In this document: positions 3,490 through 35,193 of the stretch, piece by piece | How the letters are laid out: the number at the start of each line of letters is the position of its first letter | Numbering within the stretch: position 1 is the stretch's first letter | DNA from: Pseudonocardia sp. | GTDB lineage: Bacteria; Actinomycetota; Actinomycetes; Mycobacteriales; Pseudonocardiaceae | Assembly (NCBI GenBank): GCA_029263115.1 | Contig: JAJCYC010000175.1 | Coordinates: 1 to 38,067, forward strand | Direction of reading: 5' to 3' | Length of the DNA: 38,067 nucleotides | The notes under the pieces: generated by a model | The model's database searches: none | What the model was told of the DNA's origin: nothing | The model's input: only the letters and a program-made list of their open reading frames with translations | Position numbers and translations under genes: made by a program

Positions 3490-3566
3490 GCCCTCGTAGC
3501 TCAGCTGGACAGAGCATCGGACTTCTAATCCGACGGTCGCAGGTTCGAATCCTGCCGGGGGCACCA
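3490..3566 (+). tRNA. tRNA-Arg (anticodon TCT), CCA encoded
   Basis: The acceptor stem GCCCTCG pairs with CGGGGGC (one G-U pair). The anticodon stem TCGGA/TCCGA encloses the loop CTTCTAA with anticodon TCT (3524-3526), which reads AGA. The T arm is GCAGG-TTCGAAT-CCTGC. A genomic CCA follows the discriminator A. The 3' half is the attachment site of the mobile element that starts here, and the integration leaves the tRNA intact. Confidence 0.97.
3522..3565 (+). repeat. attL core, 44 bp within tRNA-Arg
   Basis: This segment runs from the anticodon loop to the tRNA 3' end and is identical over 44 bp to 33652-33695. It is the left attachment site; the tRNA is rebuilt on this side. Confidence 0.92.
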
Positions 3567-3615
3567 CCTCTGAACAGCAGAGATACCTAGATGTACGGAT
3601 CTTAGCCAGGCATCG

Positions 3616-3633
3616 TGACACGCTACATGACAC
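3616..3633. promoter_or_regulatory. Putative integrase arm-type sites, left end
   Basis: Two direct copies of TGACAC (3616-3621 and 3628-3633) are separated by six bases, giving TGACACgctacaTGACAC. The same two copies with the same six-base gap occur at the right end of the element (33539-33556). The sites lie about 50 bp inside attL, as expected for arm sites of a tyrosine recombinase. They also sit at about -38 to -21 of the integrase promoter, so binding there could regulate the gene. Confidence 0.6.
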
Positions 3634-3641
3634 AGATGCGT

Positions 3642-3647
3642 TAGAAT
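3642..3647 (+). promoter_or_regulatory. -10 box of a probable leaderless integrase promoter
   Basis: TAGAAT fits the actinobacterial -10 pattern TANNNT. It ends six bases before the GTG start codon at 3654, and there is no Shine-Dalgarno sequence. Both facts suggest a leaderless transcript starting at the GTG. The pseudogenised second integrase shows the same layout (TAACCT at 33760-33765, then ATG at 33773). Confidence 0.5.
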
Positions 3648-3653
3648 CCGCAC

Positions 3654-6740: not shown

Positions 6741-6948
6741 CCGTCGGCCAGCCGCTCGGCGAGCAAGTGCGCCGTCACGCACTGGTGGATCTCGACGAGC
6801 GCGGCCGTCAGTGCCTGCGGGTCGAACGTGCCGTCGGTGGTGAGTCCGGGGGTGTGCATCGCCTCCAGCTCGCCGTCGATGCTGACGGCCAGTGGACGAG
6901 GCGGTCGCGTCGTTCGGCGCGGCGGCCACGAGCAAGTTGAGCGCGGTA
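6741..6948. repeat. Scar duplication of two separated segments (10717-10867 plus 12075-12131)
   Basis: Bases 6741-6891 align without gaps to 10717-10867, the 3' end of the leftward hypothetical gene there. Bases 6892-6948 align to 12075-12131, the 5' end of the restriction-modification gene. The intervening 1.2 kb is absent. This is a degraded second copy of that module with its middle deleted. Neither half is a functional gene: 6712-6973 contains only this scar. Confidence 0.75.
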
Positions 6949-6973
6949 TGGTCGCGGACGCGGACGGCTGGTC

Positions 6974-10697: not shown

Positions 10698-11561
10698 CTA
10701 ACTCGTGTCTATCCGTCCGTCGGCCAGCTGCTCGGCGAGCAGGTGCGCGGTGACGCACTGGTGGATCTCGACGAGTGCGGCGGTCAAGTCTTGCGGGTCG
10801 AGGGTGCCGTCGGTGGTGAGTCCGGGGGTGTGCATCGCCTCCAGCTCGCCGTCGATACTCACGGCCAGGGTGTCGAGTTCGCCGGCAAGCAGCGCGACGC
10901 GGCCGGCGGTGAGTGCTTCGGTCCAGGTATAGGGCAAGCCGCTGGCGACGCCTTGGCGGTGAACGGTCGTGGCACTGATGGCGGTGATGCTCCAGCGGTG
11001 TTCCTGCGTGGTGTTCATGGGTGCAGCGTCGCCCGCGAGCTCGGGTGGTGGGAAGCGATCGCGCCCCGGATACTGCTCAAGGTGCCGCTGGGCGTCGAAC
11101 CAGGCGTCACCGATGACGCGCCACGCCTGCTTGTCACACACCTGCCAGACCAGCCGGTCGACCCGGATACGCAGGTGTGCCGGGATCCCGTTCGCGTGCG
11201 CGGCCGGTACCCACTTCGTGGTGACCTCCACCGGCCCGGACAGCTGGACGCAGATGCCCAACGGGTAGCGCTCTGGGTCGGGGGCGAGCCAGGTTTGAGA
11301 GACCTGCTCGGGCAGCCGCTGGACCGCGAGGTACTGCGCAGCGTCCCAGTGCTGGCGGATCCGGGCGGCGACCGCAGGGTCGGTGAGGTAGACCAGCGCG
11401 TCCCCGATCCGGGCGCTGACCTGCCGCTCGGGTGTGCCGATCGCGTGCGGGTGGATGCCGGTGAGGACGGGGCCGGCGACGCGCAGCACGACCGCGAGCA
11501 CGGTCGAGGTCACCCCGTGGTGTTCGGAGGGCTGGCGCCGGTGGGTGGGGTGGCTGGGCAT
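10698..11561 (-). CDS. Hypothetical protein, leftward, behind a structured leader
   Basis: This is a soluble protein of about 287 residues with no signal peptide; I do not recognise the family. It has a Trp-rich central part (WKVP.., RVDRLVWQVCDKQAWRVIGD) and a helical C-terminus (LDPQDLTAALVEIHQCVTAH). The start ATG 11561 is preceded by AGGGAGC. A copy of its last 50 codons sits in the scar at 6741-6891, showing that the module was once duplicated. Upstream is a leader of about 220 bp with a large hairpin (11641-11865) that recurs in front of the WhiB gene at 17872. Confidence 0.65.
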   Translation of the reverse strand: MPSHPTHRRQPSEHHGVTSTVLAVVLRVAGPVLTGIHPHAIGTPERQVSARIGDALVYLTDPAVAARIRQHWDAAQYLAVQRLPEQVSQTWLAPDPERYPLGICVQLSGPVEVTTKWVPAAHANGIPAHLRIRVDRLVWQVCDKQAWRVIGDAWFDAQRHLEQYPGRDRFPPPELAGDAAPMNTTQEHRWSITAISATTVHRQGVASGLPYTWTEALTAGRVALLAGELDTLAVSIDGELEAMHTPGLTTDGTLDPQDLTAALVEIHQCVTAHLLAEQLADGRIDTS

Positions 11562-11640
11562 GGTGGGTGCTCCCTGATGGGCCGGAGGTCCGCGACCGGG
11601 CCTGTCGGCCCGAGATGCGGGGGGCGGTGCCGTTGCCGCC

Positions 11641-11865
11641 TCCGCGTTGGAGCGCCCGGCAGCGGTCGCAGAGGCTCCGCGCCAAGGGATCAGGGTCGAA
11701 AGATCATGGCCGGGCCGGCAGGCCCCGCGCAGCGGCCCGCAGGGCGGCCATGATCTTTCGGCGCCCCTTGGGGTGGAGGGGCGACCGATGCGAAGCTCGG
11801 GCCGACAGGACCGGCCGATGCAGTCGGGTCCACCCAGGTTCTCGGCCGCGCGGCCCTGAGCGCCC
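11641..11865 (-). ncRNA. Repeated structured leader, copy 1
   Basis: This lies in the gap 11562-12038 upstream of the leftward gene at 11561. A perfect 15-bp inverted repeat (11697-11711 with 11746-11760) sits inside an outer pair CCAAGGG/CCCTTGG (11682-11688 with 11765-11771). The blocks on both sides (AGAGGCTCCGCGCC at 11670-11683; GTGGAGGGGCGA.CGATG at about 11773-11790; GTTCTCGGCC at 11838-11847) recur at matching distances in copy 2 (17931-18147), but the stems differ in sequence and still pair. This fits a structured RNA or cis-regulatory leader. Alternatives are a small mobile repeat or a Cys-containing micro-ORF (ARSLCDRCRA on the minus strand). No gene is seen in 11866-12038. Confidence 0.45.
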
Positions 11866-12038
11866 TGCACTACGGGGTGTGCGCTCCCATCTGGCCCCGG
11901 CGGCGATGGGATCGGTGGCGGTTAAACTGCCTTCCGGACACATCGTCAGCCCGGGCCGGTCGTGCTGGCATGTGGACAACTACGGCGCGGGGATCGGTGG
12001 TTGACCTGCCGTTTCGCTAGGGTCGAGCCCAGGTTCGG

Positions 12039-15000
12039 ATGCTGGGGGGCACGTTGGCGCAACGACCGACGACCGTGGACGAGGCCATCGCGTCGTTCGG
12101 CGCGGCGGCCATGAGCAAGTTGAACGCGGTATCGGTGCGGGGCGAGCCCGAGGATCAGCTGCGGAATCCGCTGGAGACCCTGCTGGCCGACCTCGCGGCG
12201 CTGGCCGGTCTGGACCCGGCGAAGCTGGTTCTGGTCGGGGAGTCATCGCTGGCCGAGATGCACACCCGCCCGGACTTCGCGGTCACCTACGACCACGCGC
12301 TCGTCGGGTACATCGAGGTCAAGGCCCCGGACAAGGGCACTGACCCTCGGCGGTTCCGGACGGGGCACGACAAGCAGCAGTGGCAGCGGCTCAGCGCGCT
12401 GCCCAACCTGATCTACACCAATGGCAACGGGTTCATCCTGCTCCGGGACGGCGAGGCCATCGGGGACGTCGAGCACCTGGTCGGCGATGTCCGCTCGTCC
12501 GGCTCGGACTTGCGGCCCAGCCCGGGTCTGCTGCCCCTGGTCGCCAACTTCCTGGGCTGGACGCCGAGTGCTCCCCGAACGACGCGCCAGCTCGCGCAGA
12601 CCGCAGCCCGGTTGTGCCGGCTGCTGCGCGACGAGGTGAGTGAGCAGCTGGACCGCAAGGACGCTGCGCTCACCACCTTGGCTCAGGAGTGGAAGCAGCT
12701 GCTGTTCCCGAAGGCCACCGAATCCGAGTTCGCCGACGGCTACGCCCAGGCCGTGACGTTCGGGCTGCTGCTGGCTCGGGCCGAGAACATCCCGCTGGAC
12801 GCCGGGATCGACGCGGCCGCCAGGAAGCTGGGCAAGAGCCACTCGCTGATCGGCACCGCGCTGCGCATCCTGACCGACGAAGCCGTGCAGTCCAAGACCC
12901 TGGTCACCTCGGTCCAGACCCTGACCCGGGTCCTCGCGGTGGTCGACTGGTCGACCCTGACCAAGGGCGACCCCGAGGCGTGGCTGTACTTCTACGAGCT
13001 GTTCCTGGCCGAGTACGACAGCGACCTGCGCCGCAAAACCGGCTCGTACTACACCCCACCCGAGGTGGTGGAGGCGATGACGGCGCTGGTCGACGAGGCC
13101 GTCCGCGGCCGACTGAGCGTGCCGGCCGGTCTCGCCGACGACGGCGTGACCATCGTCGACCCGGCCATGGGCACCGGCACATTCCTACTGTCGGTGGTGC
13201 GGACGATCGCCGGCCGCATCGAGGACGACCTCGGCGCCGGCGCGGTCCCGGGTGAGTTGTCCAAGGTGCTGCGCCGGGTGATCGGGTTCGAATTGCAGCT
13301 CGGCCCGTTTGCCGTCGCCCAGCTGCGGCTCCTCGCCGAACTCGTCGAACTCGGACTACCGGCGTCGGCCAGCCCGCCGCTACGCACCTACGCAACGAAC
13401 ACCCTGGACAACCCCTACGTGGAGGACGAGCACCTCGGGGTGTTCTACGAACCGATCGCCCGGTCCCGCCGCGAAGCCAACGAGATCAAGAAGGACGAGG
13501 CGGTCCTGGTCGTGCTCGGTAACCCGCCGTACCGGGAACGAGCCCGCACCGAGGGCGGTTGGATCGAGCAAGGCACCGAGGTCACGCGAGCTCTGCTACG
13601 CGATTTCGTCCCACCGCCCGACTGGGGAGTATCGGCGCACGTCAAACACCTCTACAACCACTACGTCTACTTCTGGCGATGGGCGCTGTGGAAGGTGTTT
13701 GAGCACCACGCCGAGGCCGATCGTGGCGTGATCTGCTTCATCACCGTCGCCGGATTCATCGACGGCCCCGGCTTCGCCCGAATGCGGGAGTGGATGCGGA
13801 GCAAGGCCGACGAGATCTGGGTCATCGACTGCTCCCCCGAAGGCCACCAACCCGCAGTCAGCTCCCGTGTGTTCGAGGCCGTCCAACAGCCGGTGTGCAT
13901 CGTGCTCGCGGTGCGCGATGGATCCTCCGGCACCGGGTTGGCGCCGGTGCGGCATCGCACCCTGGCCGCCGGCAATCGGCGGGGCAAGTTCGACGAGTTG
14001 GCGGGGGTGTCGCTGGGCGACGGCGGCTGGCGCGACTGCGACCACGACGGCCGCGCCCCGTTCACACCCTCCGCTGAGAGCCGGTGGGCGAGTTTCCCCT
14101 CGCTCGACGACGTATTCACCTACTCCGGCTCCGGCACCATGCCAGGCCGAACCTGGGTCGTGGCTCCCGACGCTGACACCCTGCGGCAGCGGTGGCGAGC
14201 GCTGGTTAGCGCCAAACCGGAGCACAAGCCGGATCTGATGTCCGAGCACAAGCGAGACCGGCGGATCGATACCCGGCTCAAGGACAACCTGTCCGGCTAC
14301 CCGGCCACCTCGAAATCGCTCGGGGAGGAGACCGGCGACGGCGCCGAGCCGTTGCGGATCGGGTACCGCTCCTTCGACCGTCAGTGGATCATCCCGGACA
14401 AGCGGCTGATCAATCAGCCCAACCCGCGACTGTGGGCCGCCCGGTCCGAGCAGCAGGTTCACCTCACCGCACTGAGTCGATCCTCGCCGACCGCCGGCCC
14501 AGGAGTGACCTTCTCGGCGCTGGTGCCCGATCTGGACCACTACAAGGGCAGCTTCGGTGGTCGGGCGTACCCGTTGTGGTTGGACGCGGGCGCCGCCACC
14601 TCCAACGTCCGGCCCGCGCTGCTCGCCTCGTTGGAAGCACGCTTCCAACGCCGGCCGACTGGACCGGACATCATGGCCTATCTGGCTGCGGTGTGCGCCC
14701 ATCCCGGCTACCCGGCCACGTTCGCCGACGACCTGACCAACCCCGGCATTCGGGTTCCGATCACCACCGACGCCGAGTTGTTCGCCCAGGCCGCCGACTT
14801 GGGCCGACGGCTGATCTGGCTGCACGCGTACGGGCAACGCTTCGCTGACCCGGCGGCGGGGCGGCCCAAGGGCGCGCCCCGGATGGACAAGCCGCTTGCC
14901 CCCCGGGTGTCCGCTGAGTACCCGATGCCCACCGGCCCAGCCACCGACATGCCCGACGAGCTGCGCCATGACGCTGCCACCGGCCGCCTACATGTCGGAT

Positions 15001-15392
15001 CCGGTGTCATCGAGCACGTCACTGCCGAGATGTGGCGCTACGAGGTTTCCGGGGTGCGGGTGCTGACCAAGTGGTTCAGCTACCGCCGGCGCAGCCGTGA
15101 GCGGCCCTCGATGGGCCGGCGGGTCTCCAAGCTGCTCGACATCCAGCCCGATCACTGGCTACCGGACTACACCCGCGACCTGATCGACCTGCTCAACGTG
15201 CTCGGTCTGCTGGTCGATCTCGAACCGCGCCAGGCCGAGATCTTGGACAAGATCCTCACCGGTCCGCTGCTCGACGTCGCCGATTTGGCACCGGCGCCAT
15301 CCGGAGCCGGCGCATCTAGCCCTGGGAGCTCGAACGACACGTTGGCGATGTTCGATCTACCCGGCTTGGCGAACGAGCAAGAGTCGACGTGA
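12039..15392 (+). CDS. Single-chain restriction-modification enzyme (type ISP/IIG-like)
   Basis: This protein of about 1,117 residues combines cutting and methylation. Near the N-terminus RPDFAVTYDHALVGYIEVKA gives the D...ExK pattern of a PD-(D/E)xK nuclease (Asp about 78, Glu-Val-Lys about 92-94). The middle is an N6-adenine methyltransferase with DPAMGTGTFLL (motif I, about 374) and NPPY (motif IV, about 494). The C-terminal 500 residues should form the target-recognition part. No helicase motifs are visible, so it is shorter than classic type ISP enzymes and closer to type IIG. Alternative starts are TTG 12054, which has a better ribosome site (GGGGGGC), and GTG 12075. A copy of the region from 12075 occurs in the scar at 6892. 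Confidence 0.88.
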   Translation: MLGGTLAQRPTTVDEAIASFGAAAMSKLNAVSVRGEPEDQLRNPLETLLADLAALAGLDPAKLVLVGESSLAEMHTRPDFAVTYDHALVGYIEVKAPDKGTDPRRFRTGHDKQQWQRLSALPNLIYTNGNGFILLRDGEAIGDVEHLVGDVRSSGSDLRPSPGLLPLVANFLGWTPSAPRTTRQLAQTAARLCRLLRDEVSEQLDRKDAALTTLAQEWKQLLFPKATESEFADGYAQAVTFGLLLARAENIPLDAGIDAAARKLGKSHSLIGTALRILTDEAVQSKTLVTSVQTLTRVLAVVDWSTLTKGDPEAWLYFYELFLAEYDSDLRRKTGSYYTPPEVVEAMTALVDEAVRGRLSVPAGLADDGVTIVDPAMGTGTFLLSVVRTIAGRIEDDLGAGAVPGELSKVLRRVIGFELQLGPFAVAQLRLLAELVELGLPASASPPLRTYATNTLDNPYVEDEHLGVFYEPIARSRREANEIKKDEAVLVVLGNPPYRERARTEGGWIEQGTEVTRALLRDFVPPPDWGVSAHVKHLYNHYVYFWRWALWKVFEHHAEADRGVICFITVAGFIDGPGFARMREWMRSKADEIWVIDCSPEGHQPAVSSRVFEAVQQPVCIVLAVRDGSSGTGLAPVRHRTLAAGNRRGKFDELAGVSLGDGGWRDCDHDGRAPFTPSAESRWASFPSLDDVFTYSGSGTMPGRTWVVAPDADTLRQRWRALVSAKPEHKPDLMSEHKRDRRIDTRLKDNLSGYPATSKSLGEETGDGAEPLRIGYRSFDRQWIIPDKRLINQPNPRLWAARSEQQVHLTALSRSSPTAGPGVTFSALVPDLDHYKGSFGGRAYPLWLDAGAATSNVRPALLASLEARFQRRPTGPDIMAYLAAVCAHPGYPATFADDLTNPGIRVPITTDAELFAQAADLGRRLIWLHAYGQRFADPAAGRPKGAPRMDKPLAPRVSAEYPMPTGPATDMPDELRHDAATGRLHVGSGVIEHVTAEMWRYEVSGVRVLTKWFSYRRRSRERPSMGRRVSKLLDIQPDHWLPDYTRDLIDLLNVLGLLVDLEPRQAEILDKILTGPLLDVADLAPAPSGAGASSPGSSNDTLAMFDLPGLANEQEST

Positions 15393-15433
15393 TGCCGCCA
15401 CCATCGCGGCCAGAACCGGTGGGTGACGGCATT

Positions 15434-15484
15434 ACGAAGGGCCGCGCACGGAGACCTCTCGCGGTCCCGCGTCCGGCCCTTCGT
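15434..15484 (+). terminator. Hairpin terminator after the restriction-modification gene
   Basis: ACGAAGGGCCG (15434-15444) pairs perfectly with CGGCCCTTCGT (15474-15484), with more pairing possible inside. It lies between two converging genes and probably ends both transcripts. There is no U tract, as is usual in actinobacteria. Confidence 0.7.
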
Positions 15485-15512
15485 CGTTGTTGATCGCGTA
15501 GTTGTCCGGGTG

Positions 15513-16142
15513 TCAGGCCGGGGTGAAGGTGAGGTTGACTGCCCCGTCCGGGGCGATCGTCAGGTCGAGTCGACCGTCGCGGTTGACCGTGACGGGTCCG
15601 GGGGCGCGAGGGGGAGCATCGGCTCCCCCCATCCGGGCGTCGAACCACCTGATGAAGTCCTGGATCGAGCCGATCTGCGCCACCCGCTGATGGAGCGCGG
15701 TCTGCTCGTGGCCTCGCACGAACTCGCCAGCGAATATCTCGGCGCCGCAGCCGCAGCCACATGGCCAGCCGCCGATCGTGGTCTCGAAGTAGGTGACCGG
15801 GTTGCGCACCCGCGCACTGTCGGGGGTGGGCTTGCCGACGTACGCCTGGTGCACGGCGTGGTCCTCCGCGAGCGGCTCTCCTTCGATGATCTTGCGGCCT
15901 GGTTTGCCGGGCGCGTCCACGATGTCGTCGATCTTGGCGGCCATCACCACCTCGTGGGTGCCCGCGTATGAGAACAGCACGTAGCTCTCTCGCTGCGCCC
16001 GCGCTCCGAGCACCCAGTAACCTCGGTTGTTCCTCCAGTTCTGCATGATCGAGTCGTGCTCGCCCCACCCGTAGAAGGTCCGGTCGAGTGGGTCGGTCGG
16101 GTCGTTGGCGACCTGCTTGCCGGTGAGCGTGATGTGAAGCAT
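15513..16142 (-). CDS. Hypothetical protein with Cys-rich motif, next to the R-M gene
   Basis: The protein has 209 residues and starts at ATG 16142 after GAGAGGG. The N-terminal 110 residues (YGWGEHDSIMQNWRNNRGYW, VLGARAQRESYVLFSY) have a beta-rich look. A short motif CGCGAEIFAGEFVRGH (about 135-150), rich in Cys and His, could bind a metal. It continues into FIRWFDARMGG and a beta-type tail (VTVNRDGRLDLTIAPDGAVN). I do not recognise a named family; a PUA/EVE-like modified-base reader is possible but weakly supported. It converges on the restriction-modification gene, and its own promoter must lie in 16143-16253, where TATCCGGGTAAC and TATCGGGGTAAC occur as near repeats. Confidence 0.6.
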   Translation of the reverse strand: MLHITLTGKQVANDPTDPLDRTFYGWGEHDSIMQNWRNNRGYWVLGARAQRESYVLFSYAGTHEVVMAAKIDDIVDAPGKPGRKIIEGEPLAEDHAVHQAYVGKPTPDSARVRNPVTYFETTIGGWPCGCGCGAEIFAGEFVRGHEQTALHQRVAQIGSIQDFIRWFDARMGGADAPPRAPGPVTVNRDGRLDLTIAPDGAVNLTFTPA

Positions 16143-16253
16143 TGGCGTACCCTCTCTGTCTAGTGAGCCCGTCTATCCGGGTAACAAGAGAGTGCCCGAT
16201 GAGAGATACCTTTAACAAGTAGCAATCCCGAGTATCGGGGTAACGATCGGATC

Positions 16254-16874
16254 TCAGCGGTCCCGCTCGGCGGCGGGGCGCCCTCGGCTTCGCCAGACGA
16301 CTCGCCCGGGCTTGCCCGGCGTTGATTTCCGGCGGTCACAGCAGGCCTCCGGTGGTGTGGCGGGTGGTCTCGGTGGGGTGTCCGGGGTGAGGCCGGTGCG
16401 GTCGAGCAGATCGGCCAGGGCGTGCCCGCGGATCTCGGTCAGCACGTGGCCCAGCTCGCCAGGCAGCGCAGCAGCCGGGCGGCCTCGGCCGAGCGCAGCT
16501 GCCCAACCCGGGAATAGTGGAAGGTGTCATCCACCGCCGCGAGCAGCGCGGCGGCCAGCCACACCGCGTCCTCGCGGGTCAGATCCACCGGGTGGGTTCC
16601 GGGCCGGCTGGGCTTGTAGTTCGTGTCCATCCGCACCAACTGGCGCCACCCGAGGTCAGCGGCCCACTCGATCTCCTCGGGGTGTGCCTCGACGTGCTCG
16701 GCCAACGCCGGGTCCTCCGCGCCGGCCAGGCTGACCGTGACCGTGTTGGCATAGCGGAACTCGGCGCCGGCCGGGGTGAAGCCCTCGACACTCGCGGTGA
16801 ACGCCCGATCCCGGGCCGGGATAGGCGCGCGCTCCCCGCCCGGCTGGTCGGGCGACTGGTGGGTGGGCTCGGTC
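16254..16874 (-). CDS. Hypothetical protein, frame broken near its end
   Basis: The start ATG 16874 lies four bases after the SprT-like gene, so they form an operon. The frame (MTEPTHQSPDQPGG..) runs 145 codons to a TGA at 16439. Shortly before that stop, the adjacent frame picks up a natural continuation (GELGHVLTEIRGHALADLLD) reaching 16254. One missing base near 16450-16460 would explain this, so either the protein is truncated or the sequence has an error. The N-terminal half contains LTREDAVWLAAALLAAVDDT. I do not recognise its family. Confidence 0.5.
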
Positions 16875-16878
16875 ATGA

Positions 16879-17547
16879 TCAGTCCTCCTCGGGTTCGAAC
16901 GTGGTGTCGCAGATGCCGCATGTGATCGGCCCGGCCGCCAGCACCGACGGGGCGACCCGGATGCGTCTGCCACACCCGCACACACACGGCGGCGGGGCCT
17001 TCTTCGCCGGACCGGTGCTGTCGATCTCGACCGCCCGGTGCAGCCGCAACGCCCCGGCCAGCCCGGCGAGGGTGTTCGTGTAGGCGGTGGTTGTGGTGCC
17101 GGGGACGGTGGTGGGTGACCAGCCGATCCGGGGGTCCTTCGCCACGGTGATTCCGAGTTCCTCGGCCAAGGCCTTGAACCGGGCGTTGTGCCAGCGGCCC
17201 TGCCGGCTGGTGTCCTTGATCCCCCGGACATGCGCGAGGGCGTGCGCGGCCTCGTGCAGCAACGTGCCCAGCACCCCGACCGGGCCACGCAGCAGCCCCT
17301 CACCACCGATGAACACCTCCGGCAACCGACCCCCGTCCGGACCGGCGCCGACGCCGGCGTCCAGCCCGGTCTCGGCGTCCGGCCCGGTGTCGGGGTGGGT
17401 GTGCTGCCAGCGCATCGCGGCGAAATGCCCCAGCTTCAACCCGCCGGCCGCCGTCCCGGAGCCAGCGCCGACCACGATCACCGCCGCCGGTACCTCCGGG
17501 TGCCGGCCGCGGATGTCGGCCCATGCCCGCTCCAGCGCGGCAACCAA
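16879..17547 (-). CDS. SprT-like zinc metalloprotease-type protein
   Basis: The protein has 222 residues. LLHEAAHALAHVRG contains the HExxH zinc motif, and the following segment (RWHNARFKALAEELGI) fits SprT-like proteins. A C-terminal zinc ribbon (CVCGCGRRIRV ... CGICDTTF) completes the typical SprT layout. SprT-like proteins are putative proteases, some acting on DNA-protein crosslinks; the substrate here is unknown. The start is uncertain; TTG 17547 gives the longest frame. It sits between a WhiB gene (56 bp upstream) and the next hypothetical gene (4 bp downstream), all leftward. Confidence 0.8.
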   Translation of the reverse strand: MVAALERAWADIRGRHPEVPAAVIVVGAGSGTAAGGLKLGHFAAMRWQHTHPDTGPDAETGLDAGVGAGPDGGRLPEVFIGGEGLLRGPVGVLGTLLHEAAHALAHVRGIKDTSRQGRWHNARFKALAEELGITVAKDPRIGWSPTTVPGTTTTAYTNTLAGLAGALRLHRAVEIDSTGPAKKAPPPCVCGCGRRIRVAPSVLAAGPITCGICDTTFEPEED

Positions 17548-17602
17548 CGGGCACTGATCGGCTGCGTTGACACCGCAGCGTCAACAGCCGTCGTCGCGGC
17601 GC

Positions 17603-17872
17603 TCACGCCGCCCACCGCCGCTCGCACCGAGTGATCGCGTCCTGGGCGCGGGCCAGCTCGCGGCGCTCGTTGGGGGTCATCCCACCCCGAACCCCGAACG
17701 TCACGTCCCGCTGGTCGAGGGCCTCGGTCAGGCACGCCGCCCGGACCGGGCAGGCGGCACAGACCCGCTTCGCGGCGTGCGGCGTCTGGCCGACCTCCGG
17801 GTAGAAGATCTCGGGGTCGGTTTCGCGGCACAGCGCGCTGTCGCGCCACCGCGAGTCGGTGTGCTGCTGCAT
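17603..17872 (-). CDS. WhiB-family iron-sulfur regulator
   Basis: This 89-residue protein has the four WhiB cysteines at 15, 38, 41 and 47 (CxxC then C), which bind a [4Fe-4S] cluster. They are followed by the turn GVRGG, in place of the usual G(V/I)WGG, and a basic helix (NERRELARAQ). WhiB proteins regulate transcription through contact with the sigma factor. I chose ATG 17872; a TTG at 17884 would add four residues. It heads the operon with the SprT-like gene and lies behind copy 2 of the structured leader. Confidence 0.9.
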   Translation of the reverse strand: MQQHTDSRWRDSALCRETDPEIFYPEVGQTPHAAKRVCAACPVRAACLTEALDQRDVTFGVRGGMTPNERRELARAQDAITRCERRWAA

Positions 17873-17930
17873 GGCGGGCTCCAAGTCGGTGTGGTGCTGG
17901 CCCCGTTGTGCGGGGCGGCGGGCTGTGCCT

Positions 17931-18147
17931 GCCGCTTGGAGCTGCCCTGCAGCGCTCGTAGAGGCTCCGCGCCGAGTGGTTCCGGGGTGGTCCGGGCGGG
18001 TGGATCGCAGCTGTTCCGCGATTCACCCGGGCGGATCGGGCCGGGTTCCTCGGCGTGGAGGGGCGAGCGATGCAAGCTCGGGGCCAGGACCACACCCCGC
18101 CGAAGGCGGGTCGACCTTCGGTTCTCGGCCCGCCTGGCCTTGAGGGC
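17931..18147 (-). ncRNA. Repeated structured leader, copy 2
   Basis: This lies upstream of the leftward WhiB gene, inside the gap 17873-18226. It shares flanks with copy 1 (AGAGGCTCCGCGCC; GTGGAGGGGCGAGCGATG; GTTCTCGGCC) at similar spacing. The hairpins use different bases: CGCCGAG/CTCGGCG (17970-17976 with 18049-18055) and, inside, CGGGTGGATCGC/GCGATTCACCCG (17997-18008 with 18018-18029, one G-U pair). Conserved pairing with changed sequence argues for a functional RNA or DNA structure. Its role is unknown. Confidence 0.45.
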
Positions 18148-18824: not shown

Positions 18825-21800
18825 CTACACATGGTCGACCCGCTCCAGCGCCGGCGCCCCGTCGTCGGTGGAGCGACCGTCCGAGTCGCCGGCCGTCTGG
18901 TCGTCGGTGTGCCAGCGGGCCAATTGCTCGGAGCGGGCTTCCTCGGCTTCGCGGGCCGCGTCGGCGGCGTCGCGTTGGTGCATTTCGACTAGGGCCCGGC
19001 CGGCTCGGCGGACGGAGTCCTTGGCCTCCTCGGCGGTGGTGACCCGGACGGTGTCCTCGTCGGCGCCGGCGTCTTCGTCGGCGGCCAGCTCGCGGATGTC
19101 GATGGTGTCGGGCGGTTGGACGTGCGCCTTGGCCTGGTCTGCCTCGGCCCGATCCACCTGGCCCTCCCCTACAGCGGCCGGGTCCCGCTCCGGAGCTGAC
19201 TCGTCGATGTCCTGGGCGATGTCGGTTTCGGTGATCTCCCGGTGGGGGTCTTCGTCTCGGGTGGCCTGTTCCTGGGCGGCGAACCACTCCTCGGCGGTGA
19301 CCCGCTCGTCCTCGCCGGTGGTGCTGGCGTGGCGGTTGGCGAGTTCGGCGTAGGCGCGGTCATGGGCGGCGCGGCTACCGGCGGTGTGCGCGTACCACTT
19401 GACCCAGACGTCATCGAGTTCGCGCAGCGGGCCGATCTGGCCTTCGAGGGTCTCGGCCAGCGCGGCGGATTCGCGGGCCTGTTGAGCGAGCTGGTCGCGC
19501 TCATCCGGAGCGGTGGCCGCGTGAGCTTGGGCGCCTTTCAGCTCGGCGGCCTGGCGGTGGTGCTGGGCGGCCTGAATCGTGCCGGCCAGCTCGTTGGCGA
19601 CCCGGCGGGGCGCCCAGGGGATCTCGCGCTGGTAGGCGCGGATCCGCATCCGCAACTGCCCGTCGGACATGGCTTGTTCGTGGGTGTCGGCGTCGGAGCG
19701 GCCCAGCGCGCGGGAGGCGGCGCGCCAGGAGGCGTAGGCCTCGATCTGCCCGGATTTGGGCGGTGCCCCGAGAACATCGGTCGGGTCGTCCTGGCCGACC
19801 AGCTCGCGGTGACCAGCCACCACGCCGGCGCGCTCGACCCAGGCGGCCCGCTCGTGCGGGTCGGCGGGGAGCGGGCCGAACGCCTCGAGTGCCCACTGGG
19901 GTGGGTTGTCGGCGAGCTGGGCGCCCAGCTCGAGGCGGCGAGCGTCGCCGGCGTAGGCGATCTCGGCCAGCTGCGCGGCCAGACCACGGTCGTCGGTGGC
20001 CGGCACCCAGTCGGCGAACGTGGCGCCGGCGGGGTCGAAGGTGCGGCCGTGGGTGAGCCGGTGGACCAACACGTTGGAGATCTGCTGGGCGCTGTCCAGG
20101 GTCCGCCCACCCACGGCCTCGGTCAGAGCGGCGCGGGGGTCGCGGCCGGCGATCTCGATCCGGCGCAGGATCGGGGCGAGCTTGCGGCCGCCGTCCTCGG
20201 CGGCCAGGCGCCGGCGTTGGGCGATGGTGATCTCGCCGGTGGCGGCGAGCTCGTCGAGCCAGCCGGCGGTGCGTTCGGCGACGGTGACCTCGGCGACCGC
20301 GGCGAGCCGTTCGGCGGCGGTGCACACGCTCACCGCCTCGGCCGCGGATTCGTCGCCGTAGGCGGTGGCGGACTTCTCGGTGTCGCCGTTCTCCAGGATG
20401 GTCGCCAGGACCGCGCGGGGGTTGCGGGTCAGCGCGTGCGCGACCTCGCCCGGCGCGGCGTCCTCGGCGGCGGTGCGGGTGACGACGTAGAGGTGGTTGG
20501 CCTCCCGACCCCTGGTCGCGGCCGGGTAGAGCGCGGTCGCGGCGGTGTGGGCGGTGGCGATGGTGTGGCCGGTGTCGACGGTGAGGCCCTCCACCGCGTG
20601 CACCGTCGCGGCGTAGCCCAGGGTGAGGTCGTGTTCCACGTAGCCGGCGGGCAGCGTCATCCGCTCCCCGAGCACCTCGACGCCGTAGGGGCCGGCGAGG
20701 GTGACGATCGGGGCGACCACGATCGACCCGTCCTCGCGGGTGTCCAGCACCCGGTAGTGCTCGCGGGTGATCGGGCCGCGCCGGTTGCCGGCGTACCCGG
20801 CCAGCTCCCAGGCCAGGCGGCGGGCCTGCACCACGTCCCCGACGCCGGCGGTCGTGCCGTCCCGGCCCAGCACCAACCCGTCCTCGGCGACCCGCCCGAG
20901 GCTGACGAGCTGGGCGCGGAGGGTGGCGTTGATCCTGGCCGCCTGCTCGTTGGTGTCCACCACCAGCACCGAGTGCTTACCGGCGAGGGTGTCGGCCAGC
21001 CAGCCGTGCCCGGCCTGGTCCTCGGCGGTGTCGAGGGTGCCGCCGTCGCGAATGCGGCCCTCGCGGTGGTAGTCGTCCAGGCAGGCGGGGTCGCCGGCGC
21101 GCAGCCGCAGCGACGCCGCCCGTTCCCAGTCGTCGCGGAAGCGGCGGACCTCGGTCAGCTCGTAGAACGGTCCGCGCTCGACCAGCAGCTCGCCGATCCC
21201 GCCGGCGCCGACCGCGCCGAGTTGGCGGTGGTCCCCGACCAGCAGCAGCTTCGCCCCCACCGCCGCGACCCGGGCGTGCACCGCCGCGACCGCCGGGGCG
21301 TCGGCCATCGACGATTCGTCGATCACCACCAGATCCCCCGCGCCGAGCGTCCAGTCCTGATCGCCGTCGCGGGTGCGGCCCTCGGCCAGCCGGGCCTGCG
21401 TGGCCAACCAGGCGGCGGTGTTCGCCGCCGCCAGGCCCTCGGCCTGCAGGACTCCGGCGGCCTTCTGGCTGGTCGCCAACCCGAACACCCGCCCACCACC
21501 CGCTGGCGGCAGCGGGCCGTCGGCGGCCGGTGACGGCGTCCAGGTCGCCGGGTCGGCCCAGGCCTGGGCCAGCGCGCCGAGTACGAAGCTCTTGCCCGCG
21601 CCGGCCGGCCCGACCAGCGACTCCACCCGGGCGCCGGAGGTGAGGACCCCGGTCAGCACAGCCGCCTGGTCCGCGCCCAGCTCGATTCCCTGCTCGGCCA
21701 GCCGGGCGACGAACGCGCGGGCGTTCGCGGTCGAGGTGGCGCACGCGTCACGGCCCGTGGCGGCGGCCACCAGCAGCCGTTCGGTGTGCAGGTGCTCCGG

Positions 21801-23279
21801 TGTCGCGTAGCGCGCCCGGCCCGGCCCCTGGAAAGCCGAGCTGCCATCCGCCAACCGGAACTGTCGCGCCACCGCCACATCCCCCGGCTTGGCCTGGTCG
21901 AGCGGCACGGCCAGGGCGACTCCTTGTCGGGTGAGTTCGTCGAGCAGCGCGGCGATGCGGGCCGGGTCGGTGATCCCGAGGTAGTCCGGCAGCGCGTTGG
22001 AGATCTCCCGGGTCAGATCCGGCGCGGACCACTTCGCCTGCTTGGCCTGCACCGCCGCCAGCGCGGTCTCCACCACCTCACGCGGCGACCACGACTGCGG
22101 CTCCGGCCGCTCCCCCGCCGCCAGCGCGAGCGCCTCAAGCGCGACCTGCTCGAACCCGCCGCCCAGCTCGGCGGCGAGCTGGGCCTCGACCCGGTCCAGT
22201 CGCTGTTCGACCGTCTCGAACCCAGCCTTCGTACGGCGGGTGGTGAGGTTCGCCTGCCGGCACAACCGGTCGCGCTCCAACGCGGTCGGCGCCCGACCGT
22301 GCCGGGTCTCGAACGCGGCGACCAGCTCGGCAGCTCGCGGCCCGATCGCCCGGCTACGCGAGGACAACAGGTCCCGGACCGCTTGCGGCACCCCGACCAG
22401 CTCGCGGGCCTTGCCGTCCGGGCGGGTCGCCGACAGCACCCCCAGCGACGCCGCGAGGTGCTCTTCCGACGCCCGTTCACCGACCGCGGCGGCGGCCGGG
22501 CGGAACGCGTGGATCGCCCGCGAGTCCAGGGTCCGCCACACCCCGTCCGCGCACAGCACCCGGTTCAGGATCGTGTTGTGGATGTGCAGCTGCGGGTCGT
22601 GGTCGCGGGAGTCGTGCTGGAAGAACGAGGCGACGGTGAACCCGTGCGCGTCGATCCACTGCCCGCCGGCGCCGCCGTGATGACCGATCCTCGAGTAGCC
22701 GGCGTGCTCGGCCATGTAGGCCAGGGCGGCGTTGTTGCCCGCCCAGATCGCGTCCTCCACCGCCTTGCGCAGCACACCCCACGCGGCCCCCGAGTCCGGA
22801 TCACCCGCCCGGCGGGCCGCGATCTCCTGGTGTTCGAACGCGGCGTGCAGCACCGTGATCGACTTCGGCACGCTGAACGTAGCGTCCAGGTAGGACACGT
22901 TGTGCCGGGCACGCTGTCCCGCCTCGACCCGCAGCTCGTCCCGCCGCTGCGCATCCGCGTCCGGCTCGGCCTCCAGCGCGGCCCGGTAGATCTCGTCCTC
23001 GGACAGGTAGTTCCGTCCGGCGTGTCCCAAGGTGGACGCGGTGTCCCACTGGGACGGATCACCGAACCGGGTGTCCCGGGGGTCGAGGAACCGCTCGTAG
23101 AGCCCGATCATGTCCTGGGTCTTGACCAACCCCGACAGGCCGAGCCGTTCCGCGCCGGCGCCGAACCAGCGCCCCGGCGGCTCCCCCTCGGCGACCGCGC
23201 CGGTGTAGTAGTTCTCCCGGCCCTCGCTGGTTGCGTCGGTGTAGTACCGCACCGAGTGCCCCGACCTGATCGTCAGCAT
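18825..23279 (-). CDS. MobF-family relaxase-helicase (TrwC/TraI-like)
   Basis: This protein of 1,484 residues should nick the transfer origin, attach to the 5' end and unwind the strand for transfer. The N-terminal relaxase domain has paired tyrosines (VRYYTD at 11-16, ENYYTG near 25) and the His triad in HDPQLHIHNTILNRV (about 227-241). The helicase part has Walker A VGPAGAGKS (about 557-565) and Walker B VVIDESSM (about 650-657), as in RecD-like TraI helicases. The C-terminal 350 residues are helical and charged. It is the last gene of the leftward conjugation operon, and the start ATG 23279 follows AGAGAGG. The frame is intact throughout. Confidence 0.95.
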   Translation of the reverse strand: MLTIRSGHSVRYYTDATSEGRENYYTGAVAEGEPPGRWFGAGAERLGLSGLVKTQDMIGLYERFLDPRDTRFGDPSQWDTASTLGHAGRNYLSEDEIYRAALEAEPDADAQRRDELRVEAGQRARHNVSYLDATFSVPKSITVLHAAFEHQEIAARRAGDPDSGAAWGVLRKAVEDAIWAGNNAALAYMAEHAGYSRIGHHGGAGGQWIDAHGFTVASFFQHDSRDHDPQLHIHNTILNRVLCADGVWRTLDSRAIHAFRPAAAAVGERASEEHLAASLGVLSATRPDGKARELVGVPQAVRDLLSSRSRAIGPRAAELVAAFETRHGRAPTALERDRLCRQANLTTRRTKAGFETVEQRLDRVEAQLAAELGGGFEQVALEALALAAGERPEPQSWSPREVVETALAAVQAKQAKWSAPDLTREISNALPDYLGITDPARIAALLDELTRQGVALAVPLDQAKPGDVAVARQFRLADGSSAFQGPGRARYATPEHLHTERLLVAAATGRDACATSTANARAFVARLAEQGIELGADQAAVLTGVLTSGARVESLVGPAGAGKSFVLGALAQAWADPATWTPSPAADGPLPPAGGGRVFGLATSQKAAGVLQAEGLAAANTAAWLATQARLAEGRTRDGDQDWTLGAGDLVVIDESSMADAPAVAAVHARVAAVGAKLLLVGDHRQLGAVGAGGIGELLVERGPFYELTEVRRFRDDWERAASLRLRAGDPACLDDYHREGRIRDGGTLDTAEDQAGHGWLADTLAGKHSVLVVDTNEQAARINATLRAQLVSLGRVAEDGLVLGRDGTTAGVGDVVQARRLAWELAGYAGNRRGPITREHYRVLDTREDGSIVVAPIVTLAGPYGVEVLGERMTLPAGYVEHDLTLGYAATVHAVEGLTVDTGHTIATAHTAATALYPAATRGREANHLYVVTRTAAEDAAPGEVAHALTRNPRAVLATILENGDTEKSATAYGDESAAEAVSVCTAAERLAAVAEVTVAERTAGWLDELAATGEITIAQRRRLAAEDGGRKLAPILRRIEIAGRDPRAALTEAVGGRTLDSAQQISNVLVHRLTHGRTFDPAGATFADWVPATDDRGLAAQLAEIAYAGDARRLELGAQLADNPPQWALEAFGPLPADPHERAAWVERAGVVAGHRELVGQDDPTDVLGAPPKSGQIEAYASWRAASRALGRSDADTHEQAMSDGQLRMRIRAYQREIPWAPRRVANELAGTIQAAQHHRQAAELKGAQAHAATAPDERDQLAQQARESAALAETLEGQIGPLRELDDVWVKWYAHTAGSRAAHDRAYAELANRHASTTGEDERVTAEEWFAAQEQATRDEDPHREITETDIAQDIDESAPERDPAAVGEGQVDRAEADQAKAHVQPPDTIDIRELAADEDAGADEDTVRVTTAEEAKDSVRRAGRALVEMHQRDAADAAREAEEARSEQLARWHTDDQTAGDSDGRSTDDGAPALERVDHV

Positions 23280-24410: not shown

Positions 24411-25072
24411 CGCCGGCCCTCCTTGAGTCGGCGGGTGGCCGCGTCCAGATCGGCCGCGCTGGGTGGCGGCGGTGGCTGGTCGCGGGCGGTGGTCCACCAC
24501 CGCGCGATCGGCTCGACCGACCCGGCGCTGGGCGCGGTCGTCCGGCCGGCCAGATGGGCGTCGGCGGTGTGGTTCTCCAGCGAGCAGCTGCGCGACGCGG
24601 CGCGGATGCGGGTGACCACTCCCGGGCGGGAGCGCTCGTGCCAGTCCCCCGCCGCCGCGATCGTCCCGGTCTCCGGGCCGTAGGCGGCCTGCCAAGCCTG
24701 GTGTAGCCAGGCGAGCTCCTCGACCATGTCGGGGTGCCACAGCCAGCAGTCCGGCAGCTCCCGGGCGGCGATCGGGTAGCGCAGGTAGACCCGCCCGACC
24801 CAGTCGGCCAGCTCCCGCAGGGCCGTGGTCGCCAGCTCCGGGTCGGTGGACTCGGCGATCCAGGACACCGGCCGGACCGGATCGCGGCGCCGGCCGGCGC
24901 CGGCCAGGTCATCGAGGGCCTGGGCCAGCGTCGCGCCGAGCTGGTCGACCCGGGCGTGCAAGTCGGCCGCCTTGCGCACCGCGCGGCGCAGGGTCTCGAC
25001 CTCCCGGGCCAGCCCGGCGACCACGTCGTGGCTGACCGGCTCGCCGGCGGCGTTGGGGGTGGGGGTGGGCAT
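24407..25072 (-). CDS. Conserved hypothetical protein of the conjugation operon
   Basis: This 221-residue soluble protein has a heptad-like N-terminal helix (GLAREVETLRRAVRKAADLH). It then has a Trp-rich domain (LPDCWLWHPDMVEELAWLHQ) with a conserved-looking segment DWHERSRPGVVTRIRAASRS and CSLENH. It recalls DUF4913-type proteins of actinobacterial plasmids, but that match is uncertain. It overlaps both neighbours by 4 bp (ATGA), which places it firmly in the operon between the coupling protein and the DUF2637 gene. Confidence 0.7.
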   Translation of the reverse strand: MPTPTPNAAGEPVSHDVVAGLAREVETLRRAVRKAADLHARVDQLGATLAQALDDLAGAGRRRDPVRPVSWIAESTDPELATTALRELADWVGRVYLRYPIAARELPDCWLWHPDMVEELAWLHQAWQAAYGPETGTIAAAGDWHERSRPGVVTRIRAASRSCSLENHTADAHLAGRTTAPSAGSVEPIARWWTTARDQPPPPPSAADLDAATRRLKEGRR

Positions 25073-27228
25073 CAGTTCCACCGCCCGCGGTCGTTGTCGG
25101 CAACGTGACCGTTGTCGCTGGGCCGCTCCCCGGCCGACGAGCCCACCCGTTCGACGTCCGTGCCGGGCGCGCCGTCGGTGGGCCACGGTGTGGACAGGAC
25201 CTGCACGACCGGCGGCCTGGCTGGCTCGGGCACCGACTCGGCGAGCGCCAGCCGCACTCCCGGTTCCTCCGTGGTCCTGCTCGGGCGACGGAAGCCGGCG
25301 ACCCAGCCTGCGAGCTGCGCCCGGACCCGGGACGCCACGCCGCGCGCGGCACTGACCAGGGCCGACGTCCACCTGGTTGTCGCTGCCGCCACGCCTGCCC
25401 AGGTCAAGACCACCCGCCGGCGCAAAGCGTGCACCGGTCGAGCAATCCCAGCCGCGCAACCGGCGGCCACCGCGCGAGCCCGGACCGGGAGCGAGTTCGG
25501 CCGCTGCACCGCCCGGACGTCCGCCCGAGCCCAGGCCTTCTCCGCGTGCCCGACCACCGGCGGCATCCCGGAGGCGAACACCACCACCTTGTGCGGCGGC
25601 AACTGCGCGAGCTGCGCCGGCGCGAGCACCGGCACCTTCCGCACCGTGCGGGAGGCGACCCGGCCGTGCAGGTCCGTGGTGGTGACCGGCTCGTCGCGCT
25701 CCCCCGCCAGCGTCGACCAGTACGTCAGGTCATCCCGGTCACCAGTGCCACCGAACAGCACCTTCGACGCGGCGTTGTTGATGATCGTCGCCGCCCGAGC
25801 ATCCCCGTACCGGTCGATCAACTGCGACCGCGACTGGAAACAGGCGATGATCACCACGCCGCGTCCACCCATGTCCGCGGACCACCGATCCAGCGGAACC
25901 GGCGAGATCAGCGCCGCCTCATCCAGCGCCAGCGTCAGCGGCGGGTCCAACCGGCCCGACGGTTGGTGCGCGGCCAGCCGGCGGGCCTCGCGTGCGATAT
26001 AGCCGGTCAGCGCGCACACCAGCGGCGCGACCGGTGACTCCTCCCCGCCCAGCAGGTAGACGGTGGCCTTGTTGGCCATCAGCCACTCCACGGAGAATGG
26101 CTGGCCGCCGGTGGCGGCCGTCGCGGCCGCCGGATGGGTCAGCCACGCCAGCGCCGGCATGATCGTGGACGTGATCGACGTGCGGGTGCGCTCGTTGGTC
26201 CCGACGAACTGGGCGGCGTCGGCGACGAACGCCGGCTCCGGCGACTGGCGCAACAACTGCGCGAGCTGCCCCTCGAACCGGTCCGGGTCGGCCACCCAGG
26301 ACTGGACCTCCTGCATCGAACACCCACCCAGCGCGGCGGCGTGCAGCAGCGCGGCCAGCACGCGACGCGCCTGGCCGTCCCAGTAGGCCCGATCCCCACC
26401 CGAGCCCCCGGCGCCGGCGTGCGAGGTGGCCGCGATCATGTCCGCCGCCCGCTCGGCCGCCGTCACCGGATCCGCGCACCCGGTCAACGGATCGAACGTG
26501 ATCGTCGAGGCGAACCGCGCACCGCCCAGACCGACGGCGTTGAACACGAACACCGGACCCTTGCCCGCCCGCAGCTGCGCGGTGTGTGCGTGCAGGTCGG
26601 TGCGGGTCGAGGTGACCAGCACCGCGCCCGGAGCGTCGAGGATCCGCCCGATCAGCCACATCGACTTGCCCATCCGCGGCCCGCCGAACACCAGGATCAC
26701 GTTCTCGATCGAGGACCACACGACCTGGAACCCGACCCGGCACAGTTGCGCCGCGACCTCGATCGTCGGCAACCGACGCCGCGCCCGTCGCGACATCCCA
26801 GCCAGCGAGGGCCGGACCGTGCCCGCCTTCGCCACCACCGCCCGCCGAGACGCCTTCCGGGCGATGTCGACCGAGGACGCGACGCCGGACTTTCGGCGCG
26901 AGCGGGCACCCCAGCGGGTCACCGTCGAGGCCGTGCGCGACCAGCGATGCCACACCACCAACCCGAGCAGCACCGCCGGCGGGATCAACATCGGCCAGGT
27001 GAGCTGCTGGGCGAGGGTCATCGCCGGCAGCACCGCGCCGGCCCCCAAGCCCAGGGCGAGCCGGCGGGCGTAGGCCCGCCACGCCAGCACCGCGCCACCG
27101 GCCAGCACACCGAAGATCACGACGGTGGAGACCGTCGAGGAGGCAAACACCGAACCGGACATGGCCAGGACTCCGTTCAACGCGACGACACTCGACTCGG
27201 GAAGAACCACGCTCGGGGCGCTCATTCG
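25072..27228 (-). CDS. VirD4/TraG-type conjugative coupling protein
   Basis: The protein has about 718 residues. Two to three membrane segments in the first 100 residues (VIFGVLAGGAVLAW, LIPPAVLLGLVVWH) anchor it. The ATPase domain has Walker A GGPRMGKSMWL (about 180) and Walker B LTLALDEAALI (about 433), followed by GRGVVIIACFQSRSQL, typical of T4 coupling proteins that hand the relaxase-DNA complex to a secretion channel. The tail of about 150 residues is Ala/Arg/Pro-rich. The start ATG 27228 overlaps the lipoprotein gene upstream; a start at 27234 is also possible. No matching channel genes are found in the element. Confidence 0.93.
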   Translation of the reverse strand, partial: RMSAPSVVLPESSVVALNGVLAMSGSVFASSTVSTVVIFGVLAGGAVLAWRAYARRLALGLGAGAVLPAMTLAQQLTWPMLIPPAVLLGLVVWHRWSRTASTVTRWGARSRRKSGVASSVDIARKASRRAVVAKAGTVRPSLAGMSRRARRRLPTIEVAAQLCRVGFQVVWSSIENVILVFGGPRMGKSMWLIGRILDAPGAVLVTSTRTDLHAHTAQLRAGKGPVFVFNAVGLGGARFASTITFDPLTGCADPVTAAERAADMIAATSHAGAGGSGGDRAYWDGQARRVLAALLHAAALGGCSMQEVQSWVADPDRFEGQLAQLLRQSPEPAFVADAAQFVGTNERTRTSITSTIMPALAWLTHPAAATAATGGQPFSVEWLMANKATVYLLGGEESPVAPLVCALTGYIAREARRLAAHQPSGRLDPPLTLALDEAALISPVPLDRWSADMGGRGVVIIACFQSRSQLIDRYGDARAATIINNAASKVLFGGTGDRDDLTYWSTLAGERDEPVTTTDLHGRVASRTVRKVPVLAPAQLAQLPPHKVVVFASGMPPVVGHAEKAWARADVRAVQRPNSLPVRARAVAAGCAAGIARPVHALRRRVVLTWAGVAAATTRWTSALVSAARGVASRVRAQLAGWVAGFRRPSRTTEEPGVRLALAESVPEPARPPVVQVLSTPWPTDGAPGTDVERVGSSAGERPSDNGHVADNDRGRWN

Positions 27229-27614
27229 CGCCACCCCTCGATCGCCCGCCGGCTCGGCGGTTCTGCTGGGCTCGGGCGCTCTCCCGCCAGCGCCCCGTGC
27301 AGCAGGGACAGACGGAGCCGGTCGATCGGCTGCCCGGTCAGCGCCAGCACCGCGTCCTCGGCTTCACGACGGGCGCGCTCGGCGTCCCGCCGGGCATGCC
27401 GCTCCTGCGCCCAGCCCCAGACGGCGACCCCGGCAGCAACCAGCGCGAGGAACGCCACACCGATCATCACCGTCAGCAACACAACCTGGCCGCCATCGGC
27501 CGCCGGGGTGTTCACCACCACGGTCGTCGGTGGCTGTGCGGCGTCATCACACCCGGCGAGCAGCACCAGCACGATTCCGCCGGCAGCGAGCCGGAACCTC
27601 TTGCGCGCGGTCAC
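27222..27614 (-). CDS. Small lipoprotein with one membrane segment
   Basis: This 130-residue protein begins with a lipoprotein signal (RLAAGGIVLVLLAGCDDA; lipobox LAGC, Cys at about 22). A membrane segment (VVLLTVMIGVAFLALVAAGV, about 44-66) is followed by a charged helical tail (QERHARRDAERARREAEDAV) that is probably a coiled coil. It overlaps the coupling-protein gene downstream and the gene upstream by a few bases. A role at the membrane with the coupling protein is inferred from position only. Confidence 0.75.
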   Translation of the reverse strand: MTARKRFRLAAGGIVLVLLAGCDDAAQPPTTVVVNTPAADGGQVVLLTVMIGVAFLALVAAGVAVWGWAQERHARRDAERARREAEDAVLALTGQPIDRLRLSLLHGALAGERPSPAEPPSRRAIEGWRE

Positions 27615-33651: not shown

Positions 33652-33695
33652 CTTCTAATCCGACGGTCGCAGGTTCGAATCCTGCCGGGGGCACC
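33652..33695 (+). repeat. Right att core, copy of tRNA-Arg 3' half
   Basis: This segment is 44 bp identical to 3522-3565 and is the right attachment site of the 30.1-kb element. A second integrase pseudogene starts 78 bp downstream in the same orientation, so this copy is probably also the left att site of an older tandem element. It lacks the 5' half of the tRNA and cannot be a tRNA gene. Confidence 0.92.
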
Positions 33696-33772
33696 CAGGT
33701 CAGAGACTTCTCACCCACCTCCAGCAGGGTGACGTGGAGCTATATGTGGATCGAACGGTTAACCTTCGCCCC

Positions 33773-35171: not shown

Positions 35172-35193
35172 GCGTCGCGTTCGGCGCGTTCGG

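Follow-up and report, generated by a model that had tools for sequence, protein, structure and literature searches.

What does a structured block of DNA do when it stands, repeated, in front of different genes of one mobile element? The question is raised by a 38,067-nucleotide (nt) stretch of a Pseudonocardia genome (contig JAJCYC010000175.1; hereafter the window, meaning the whole stretch), a conjugative element integrated at a tRNA-Arg gene, in which two such blocks lie 6.1 kb apart. An earlier interpretation made from the letters alone (the sequence-only reading) had reported two blocks with matching flanks, both upstream of genes, whose nested hairpins differ in sequence yet remain paired, and had proposed a selected RNA structure. 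We confirmed the blocks, their flanks, their hairpins and their position before genes, and found that each reaches 43–45 bases further gene-ward than earlier stated, with ends at 11596 and 17888, because the second strands of a long-range helix, P0, end there. As set out below, we think it rather likely, from comparison of sequences, that each copy is a single-stranded-DNA promoter of the conjugative element. Our best reading, by analogy, is that the element would be an actinobacterial, sequence-unrelated counterpart of Frpo of plasmid F.

The window copies belong to a family and exceed chance similarity to its other members: a profile built from relatives only recovered both, with E 4e-10 for copy 1 and 1e-8 for copy 2. 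Only this profile tests the window copies independently, because later rounds included copy 1 and our covariance model, R1, was trained on 50 copies with both window copies among them. An iterated nhmmer profile gave 78 matches at E≤1e-6 in the collected loci, five of them duplicates. We left out ten of the 78, namely five identical to others (L054, L057, L061, L064 and L085), four whose end is poor or cut off (L097, L119, L115 and L082) and a divergent second match in L113, and aligned the 68 full-length copies over 263 columns, with L111, L112 and L120 padded at the 5' end. The RNAalifold consensus comprises helices PA and PB, then P0, whose halves flank all other parts of the element and which encloses a main stem, P1-P2, with three apical hairpins, and a further hairpin, P3. 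P1 and P0 had been overlooked in the sequence-only reading. P1 is GCATCGGTCGC/GCGACCGCTGC in copy 1 vs GCATCGCTCG/CGAGCGCTGC in copy 2, both sides of this outer stem differing between the copies by eye, and the heptamer GAGCCTC at the P1/P2 border is invariant in 68 of 68 aligned copies. Each half of P0 can also form a hairpin by itself in most relatives, seemingly not in copy 2.

Pairing in this structure is under selection. Covariation was significant (E<0.05) at nine of the 70 predicted pairs: three in P1, two in P2, two in apical hairpins and one each in PA and P3. The test was our own script, modelled on R-scape, with a null that keeps the tree and the base changes; it was applied to predicted pairs only, on a structure derived from the same alignment. 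Sliding the helices by 1–3 columns left zero covarying pairs, and seven of the ten top-ranking column pairs of the whole alignment were predicted pairs; after correction over all column pairs, only two remained significant.

Conserved structure is also what would be expected of an RNA leader folded at the 5' end of the downstream mRNA, such as an attenuator, a processive antiterminator like put or something riboswitch-like, common to several operons. RNA helices tolerate G·U mismatches more than A·C. On the mRNA-sense strand, however, helices had gained 77 A·C mismatches, 28 G·U and 135 others, whereas changes in unpaired columns went 198 times towards A·C and 236 times towards G·U (Fisher p 4e-7 vs helices). 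Because an A·C mismatch on one strand is G·T on the other, this bias indicates that the complementary strand carries the selected fold. It comes mainly from P0 (56 A·C, 12 G·U) and P1 (28, 8). Folding energies point the same way: under DNA parameters, minimum free energy was lower for the complementary strand in 65 of 68 copies, and consensus energies share this preference. The template strand was favoured beyond dinucleotide-shuffled expectation in 64 of these 68 (class A) copies (20 shuffles per copy), and in 31 of 67 downstream coding stretches and 35 of 68 upstream flanks taken as controls (eight shuffles each). For the window copies, template and mRNA-sense strands gave z -5.69 vs -3.60 and -7.02 vs -5.10, and the other two copies of the window's genome share the preference. 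The selected structure thus probably lies on the template strand, complementary to the mRNA. Mismatch type and energies therefore both argue against an RNA leader, and the strand tests rule out such a leader, put-like antitermination included, as the best explanation. Nor did we find an Rfam match, in keeping with the earlier statement that no named RNA family fits; Rfam 15 gave only a tRNA in the window at the gathering threshold, and permissive searches gave matches only below gathering scores. A fold selected on the antisense strand would also suit an antisense RNA that crosses the element, folds and regulates the downstream gene, an explanation to which we return below.

The genes behind the copies are varied. 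The neighbouring called gene shares the strand of the copy for 67 of 74 family copies, and for 44 of 74 its called start codon lies 75–110 nt past the end of the profile, both as an RNA leader would have it. The 57 called downstream proteins form 16 BLASTP clusters, among them WhiB, a sigma factor, an SprT-like protein, a YAcAr/SLOG protein and DUF6459; genes were called by our own GC-frame script, so some reading-frame starts and singleton clusters may be wrong. So many unrelated downstream genes are as expected of an antiterminator. Two other suggestions of the sequence-only reading fared less well. A conserved micro open reading frame is rejected because the distances from one conserved anchor to the next are spread over all three frames (27, 22 and 19 of 68) and a stop is read within ten codons in 11 of 68 copies; in the frame tested, the copy 1 stretch has no codon-position bias. 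A simple small mobile repeat is unlikely because orientation is narrow and so is start-codon spacing (in the 44 of 74 copies just mentioned). In its more general form, a dispersed repeat of the kind of miniature inverted-repeat transposable elements whose hairpins are incidental, the idea accords with the many scattered copies, up to nine per genome, but compensatory changes, orientation and the different gene families behind the copies make it scarcely credible.

The family is centred on one genus. A distant BLAST search against plasmids found homologous leaders on MOBF-typed Pseudonocardia plasmids, before another hypothetical gene, with mobF inside the stretch shown in three of six records. 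Searching 390 genomes of the taxonomic family with one such leader gave strong matches (E<1e-6) mostly in Pseudonocardia and in a few other genera. R1 found four copies in the window's own genome, two of them in the window and the remaining two before a homologue of the 287-amino-acid (aa) gene that follows copy 1 and beside an apparent MobF gene end. A covariance-model search of the genus, a check suggested with the sequence-only reading, placed copies in 47 of 62 genomes (R1 at E≤1e-4; 150 places), under stricter filters that may miss weak copies. Breadth beyond the taxonomic family was covered by one exact-pattern scan of GTDB genomes, which misses divergent copies. It gave 74 stretches; R1 matched 49 of these plus one viral contig at E≤1e-5, partly by construction, because the search pattern was the 5' module itself. 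The 49 lie in Pseudonocardia, Actinomycetospora, Prauserella, Thermocrispum, Sciscionella and Amycolatopsis, in two metagenome-assembled genomes (MAGs) labelled Pseudonocardiaceae or Pseudonocardiales and in one MAG labelled Streptosporangiaceae. Outside these 49, matches in Haloechinothrix (E 2e-5) and in a deltaproteobacterial and a planctomycete MAG (E about 1e-4) were weak. Among viral contigs, the family pattern matched once (L255), with an R1 score equal to that of L214; window-specific patterns matched zero and two times, the two being judged chance by eye. A 24-mer with three mismatches gave mostly single, chance-like matches in 199 relatives, and its reversed control also matched often.

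A second class of leaders (class B) emerged from about 11 weak R1 matches limited to model positions 74–174, six of which we examined (L173–L178). These have an unrelated P1 (ACTCCGCCCGG/CCGGGCGGAGT) and retain GAGCCTC, a P3-like hairpin and a P0-like pair. A DUF6459 gene (PF20060) follows in all four of L175–L178, over the cut-off; in L174 the downstream frame is broken, and the L173 sequence stops too soon to show one. Class A, too, has a cluster of three that stands before a DUF6459 gene (one member scanned).

Several variants lie at the edges of the family. Without the rest of the element, the 5' module (PA and PB) reappears downstream of a cysteine-rich gene (L048 4272-4321, L084 3287-3339, L052 4196-4249 and L207 4999-5068); in L048 it comes before mobF, a place that might hold an origin of transfer (oriT). 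In a chromosomal group (L087, L070, L089, L088, L103, L091, L073 and L098), the element lies 34 nt behind a small called gene (76–88 aa) and is surrounded by a same-strand gene run. A match on a plasmid of Amycolatopsis sp. FU40 (L047 5909-6150) was rejected as a family member by eye: it is a different nested hairpin of about 240 nt, intergenic and upstream of a small gene and kilB.

The element is oriented like the relaxase gene, a tie that holds across tens of kilobases. Of the copies with a TrwC match no more than 50 kb away, 77 of 77 lay on the strand of that match (64 relaxase loci). This is far from chance, because only 131 of 205 other called genes (64%) share the copy's strand in 14 loci that contain copies, although the relatedness of the elements makes the counts non-independent. 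The count started from 150 copies, 73 of which lack such a TrwC match on the same contig at this distance, and used 128 of 154 TrwC matches; 22 were excluded by hand as lying on contigs without a copy or as second fragments of an included gene, and four were absent from the tool's listing. Neighbouring copies on one contig were on the same strand 18 times and on opposite strands once, and in other genera the copies (E<1e-6) that have a TrwC gene at most 50 kb away share its strand in six of six cases. Across the 62 genomes, 38 had both copy and TrwC, five TrwC only, nine a copy only and ten neither (p 0.001).

This tie to a distant relaxase gene counts against an RNA leader as the mismatches and energies do, and we now regard such a leader as unlikely; what stood of the earlier claim is selection on pairing, not its placement in the downstream transcript. 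An antisense RNA would leave the orientation unexplained, and we hold it very improbable. Strand and orientation fit equally well with a single-strand initiation or single-strand origin (ssi/sso) site on the transferred strand that primes the second strand or binds an entry protein and is not a promoter. Frpo itself is reportedly described as priming replication, in the title of a 1997 paper by Masai and Arai. A promoter is the better fit to copies that are placed before the called starts of many unlike genes and number several per element, and a priming site of this kind seems to us improbable.

A promoter that works on the entering strand would account for these observations better than any of the rivals above, whether RNA leader, priming site without promoter function, antisense RNA or mobile repeat. 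The precedent is plasmid F, whose Frpo1 and Frpo2, once folded on the strand that enters the recipient, reconstitute -35 and -10 boxes; leading genes are transcribed from them for as long as the DNA stays single-stranded (PMC9849209; PMC11541004). In the folded template strand of our family, the non-template arm carries CCCTTGACgGtGAGtGAGGCCGTGCTAAGC, that is TTGAC, a spacer of 16–17 nt and TAAGC[CT], an arrangement conserved in the family; this arm outscores the other in 57 of 68 copies. We propose that a TrwC-type relaxase would transfer one strand into the recipient and that this strand, which by analogy with F would be the template for the downstream gene, would fold into a long hairpin closed by P0, with P1-P2 as main stem and P3 as side hairpin. 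The stem would then offer a -35-like box (TTGAC) in double-stranded form, and TAAGCT/TAAGCC, the -10-like box, would sit in the weakly paired junction of P1 and P0, at the base of P1. RNA polymerase may recognise these boxes, initiate there and transcribe the downstream gene before second-strand synthesis; conversion to double strand would abolish the hairpin and switch the promoter off. The downstream genes would thereby be expressed early and may help in establishment.

A number of points weigh against this reading. The folded strand is taken to be the transferred one by analogy with F. Among the helices, PA is reversed in mismatch type (15 G·U, 8 A·C), the two types are almost balanced in P2 (22, 27) and equal in an apical helix (13, 13), and P0, like PB, contains no individually significant covarying pair. 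Class B leaders are without strand bias, the template strand being better in two of five by z and three of five by energy. The box score reaches the shuffle 95th percentile in 73.5% of the 68 copies, counts that are not independent because the boxes are conserved by descent; copy 2 is without a good -35 box, and that of copy 1 is TTGGGG. The relaxase gene lies downstream of the copy 39 times and upstream 38 times, and nine of the 19 TrwC-negative genomes still have a copy.

Plasmid F gives a mixed comparison. Its regions at the Frpo2 and Frpo1 places, located from PMC9849209 (L256 10165-10622 and 15553-16012), are 89% identical and 4.9 kb apart, and template vs other strand gave z -7.09 vs -6.05 and -6.56 vs -5.71; the template strand was better by z in one of four coding stretches of F taken as controls. 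The relaxase gene traI shares its strand with ssb and psiB of the leading region. The 300 nt directly upstream of ssb show no strand difference (z -4.11 vs -4.08), so that the difference in F is modest and depends on the stretch chosen. The 68 copies also have no significant similarity to 14.6 kb of the F leading region (best E 0.003), their matches being 21–31 nt long and outside both Frpo regions. The results on ssb, on the coding controls and on similarity, too, count against the proposed reading.

The features of the window are collected below. The leader also precedes relatives of the 287-aa gene in other elements; the encoded protein had no match in Pfam or PADLOC, and its structure model (mean predicted local distance difference test score 43) was not used. 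The SprT-like protein had no PDB sequence relative at E≤1, and a relative of its gene in L104 (63% identical) stands directly behind a leader.

Features of the window that bear on the two copies, with coordinates counted from its first letter
Feature	Position	Strand	Remark
Copy 1, whole element	11596..11864	- (mRNA-sense)	selected fold probably on + strand
Copy 1 5' module (GCTCAGGGCC...GGCCGAGAACC, helix PA)	11837..11864	-	
Copy 1 P0, first strand	11799..11814	-	
Copy 1 P0, second strand	11596..11611	-	15/16 positions paired
Copy 1 P1, first strand	11781..11791	-	
Copy 1 P1, second strand	11659..11669	-	
Copy 1 GAGCCTC	11671..11677	-	
Copy 1 inner 15-bp stem and loop	11697..11760	-	
Copy 1 downstream gene, 287 aa	10698..11561	-	
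Copy 2, whole element	17888..18147	-	
Copy 2 5' module	18120..18147	-	
Copy 2 P0, first strand	18080..18096	-	
Copy 2 P0, second strand	17888..17904	-	16/17 positions paired
Copy 2 P1, first strand	18064..18073	-	
Copy 2 P1, second strand	17949..17958	-	
Copy 2 GAGCCTC	17961..17967	-	
Copy 2 downstream gene WhiB (PF02467)	17603..17872	-	
SprT-like gene, after WhiB	16879..17547	-	score under Pfam cut-off
TrwC-type (MOBF) relaxase	18825..23279	-	same strand as copies 1 and 2
TraG/TrwB-type coupling protein	25072..27234	-	
Type ISP restriction-modification enzyme	12039-15392	+	
Shedu	32088-33347	-	
tRNA-Arg	3490-3566		44 nt of 3' half repeated at 33652-33695

The window also encodes two integrases and two WhiB genes, the second of which (27976-28578) has an extra HTH_23-like match under the Pfam cut-off. 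The tRNA-Arg gene with its 44-nt repeat and the two integrase genes, which share repeats (3490-5444 and 33652-35278), are consistent with tandem integrated elements. A second, fused remnant at 6741-6957 corresponds to 10717-10868 and 12075-12140; it joins the end of the 287-aa gene to the start of the type ISP gene, the leader between them missing, and suggests that a related copy of this region long ago underwent a deletion.

Single-stranded-DNA promoters explain how plasmids can express anti-defence and establishment genes immediately. If our reading is true, the element would be a flag for finding new anti-defence genes and a marker for unknown establishment genes in Actinomycetota, and a sequence-unrelated family in high-GC Gram-positive bacteria would mean that the strategy either evolved repeatedly or diverged beyond sequence searches. 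We lean slightly towards a family that would have arisen in actinobacterial MOBF elements independently of Frpo, used by actinobacterial RNA polymerase and driving unknown establishment genes, with the 287-aa family, the cysteine-rich family before mobF, WhiB, the SprT-like protein and DUF6459 as candidates. The comparison of A·C with G·U gains, together with template-strand energy, would offer a cheap test separating single-stranded-DNA elements from RNA leaders.

Such promoters have been described from F and other, mostly enterobacterial, plasmids, as far as the parts of the literature at hand go, and open-access literature on single-stranded-DNA promoters in Gram-positive and conjugative contexts concerned pLS20, F and leading regions. 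Open-access papers on Frpo with Streptomyces or actinobacteria describe no such element, judging by titles and the starts of abstracts; PMC11541004 includes, by the legend of an extended figure, one Streptomyces island and may mark a promoter there, which limits this negative. Open-access literature on structured or non-coding RNA in Pseudonocardia held nothing related. Among known systems, antitermination leaders such as put RNA of phage HK022 have structure and recur ahead of at least two operons within one mobile element, as the copies do, but here selection acts on the template strand and orientation is tied to the relaxase gene. Single-strand origins of rolling-circle plasmids, for example sti of pIJ101, are likewise structured and strand-specific, whereas the present element is repeated before different genes. 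The closest likeness is to Frpo/ssi: several copies per MOBF element, on the relaxase strand and upstream of accessory genes, a template-strand stem-loop with putative -35/-10-like boxes in its stem, and a pair of copies, 4.9 kb apart in F and 6.1 kb apart in the window. The element differs from Frpo/ssi in its P0-closed fold with P1-P2 and P3, its GC-richness, its home in Pseudonocardiaceae and a promoter activity that is here putative; if that activity is confirmed, this would be a new, sequence-unrelated variant of single-stranded-DNA promoters.

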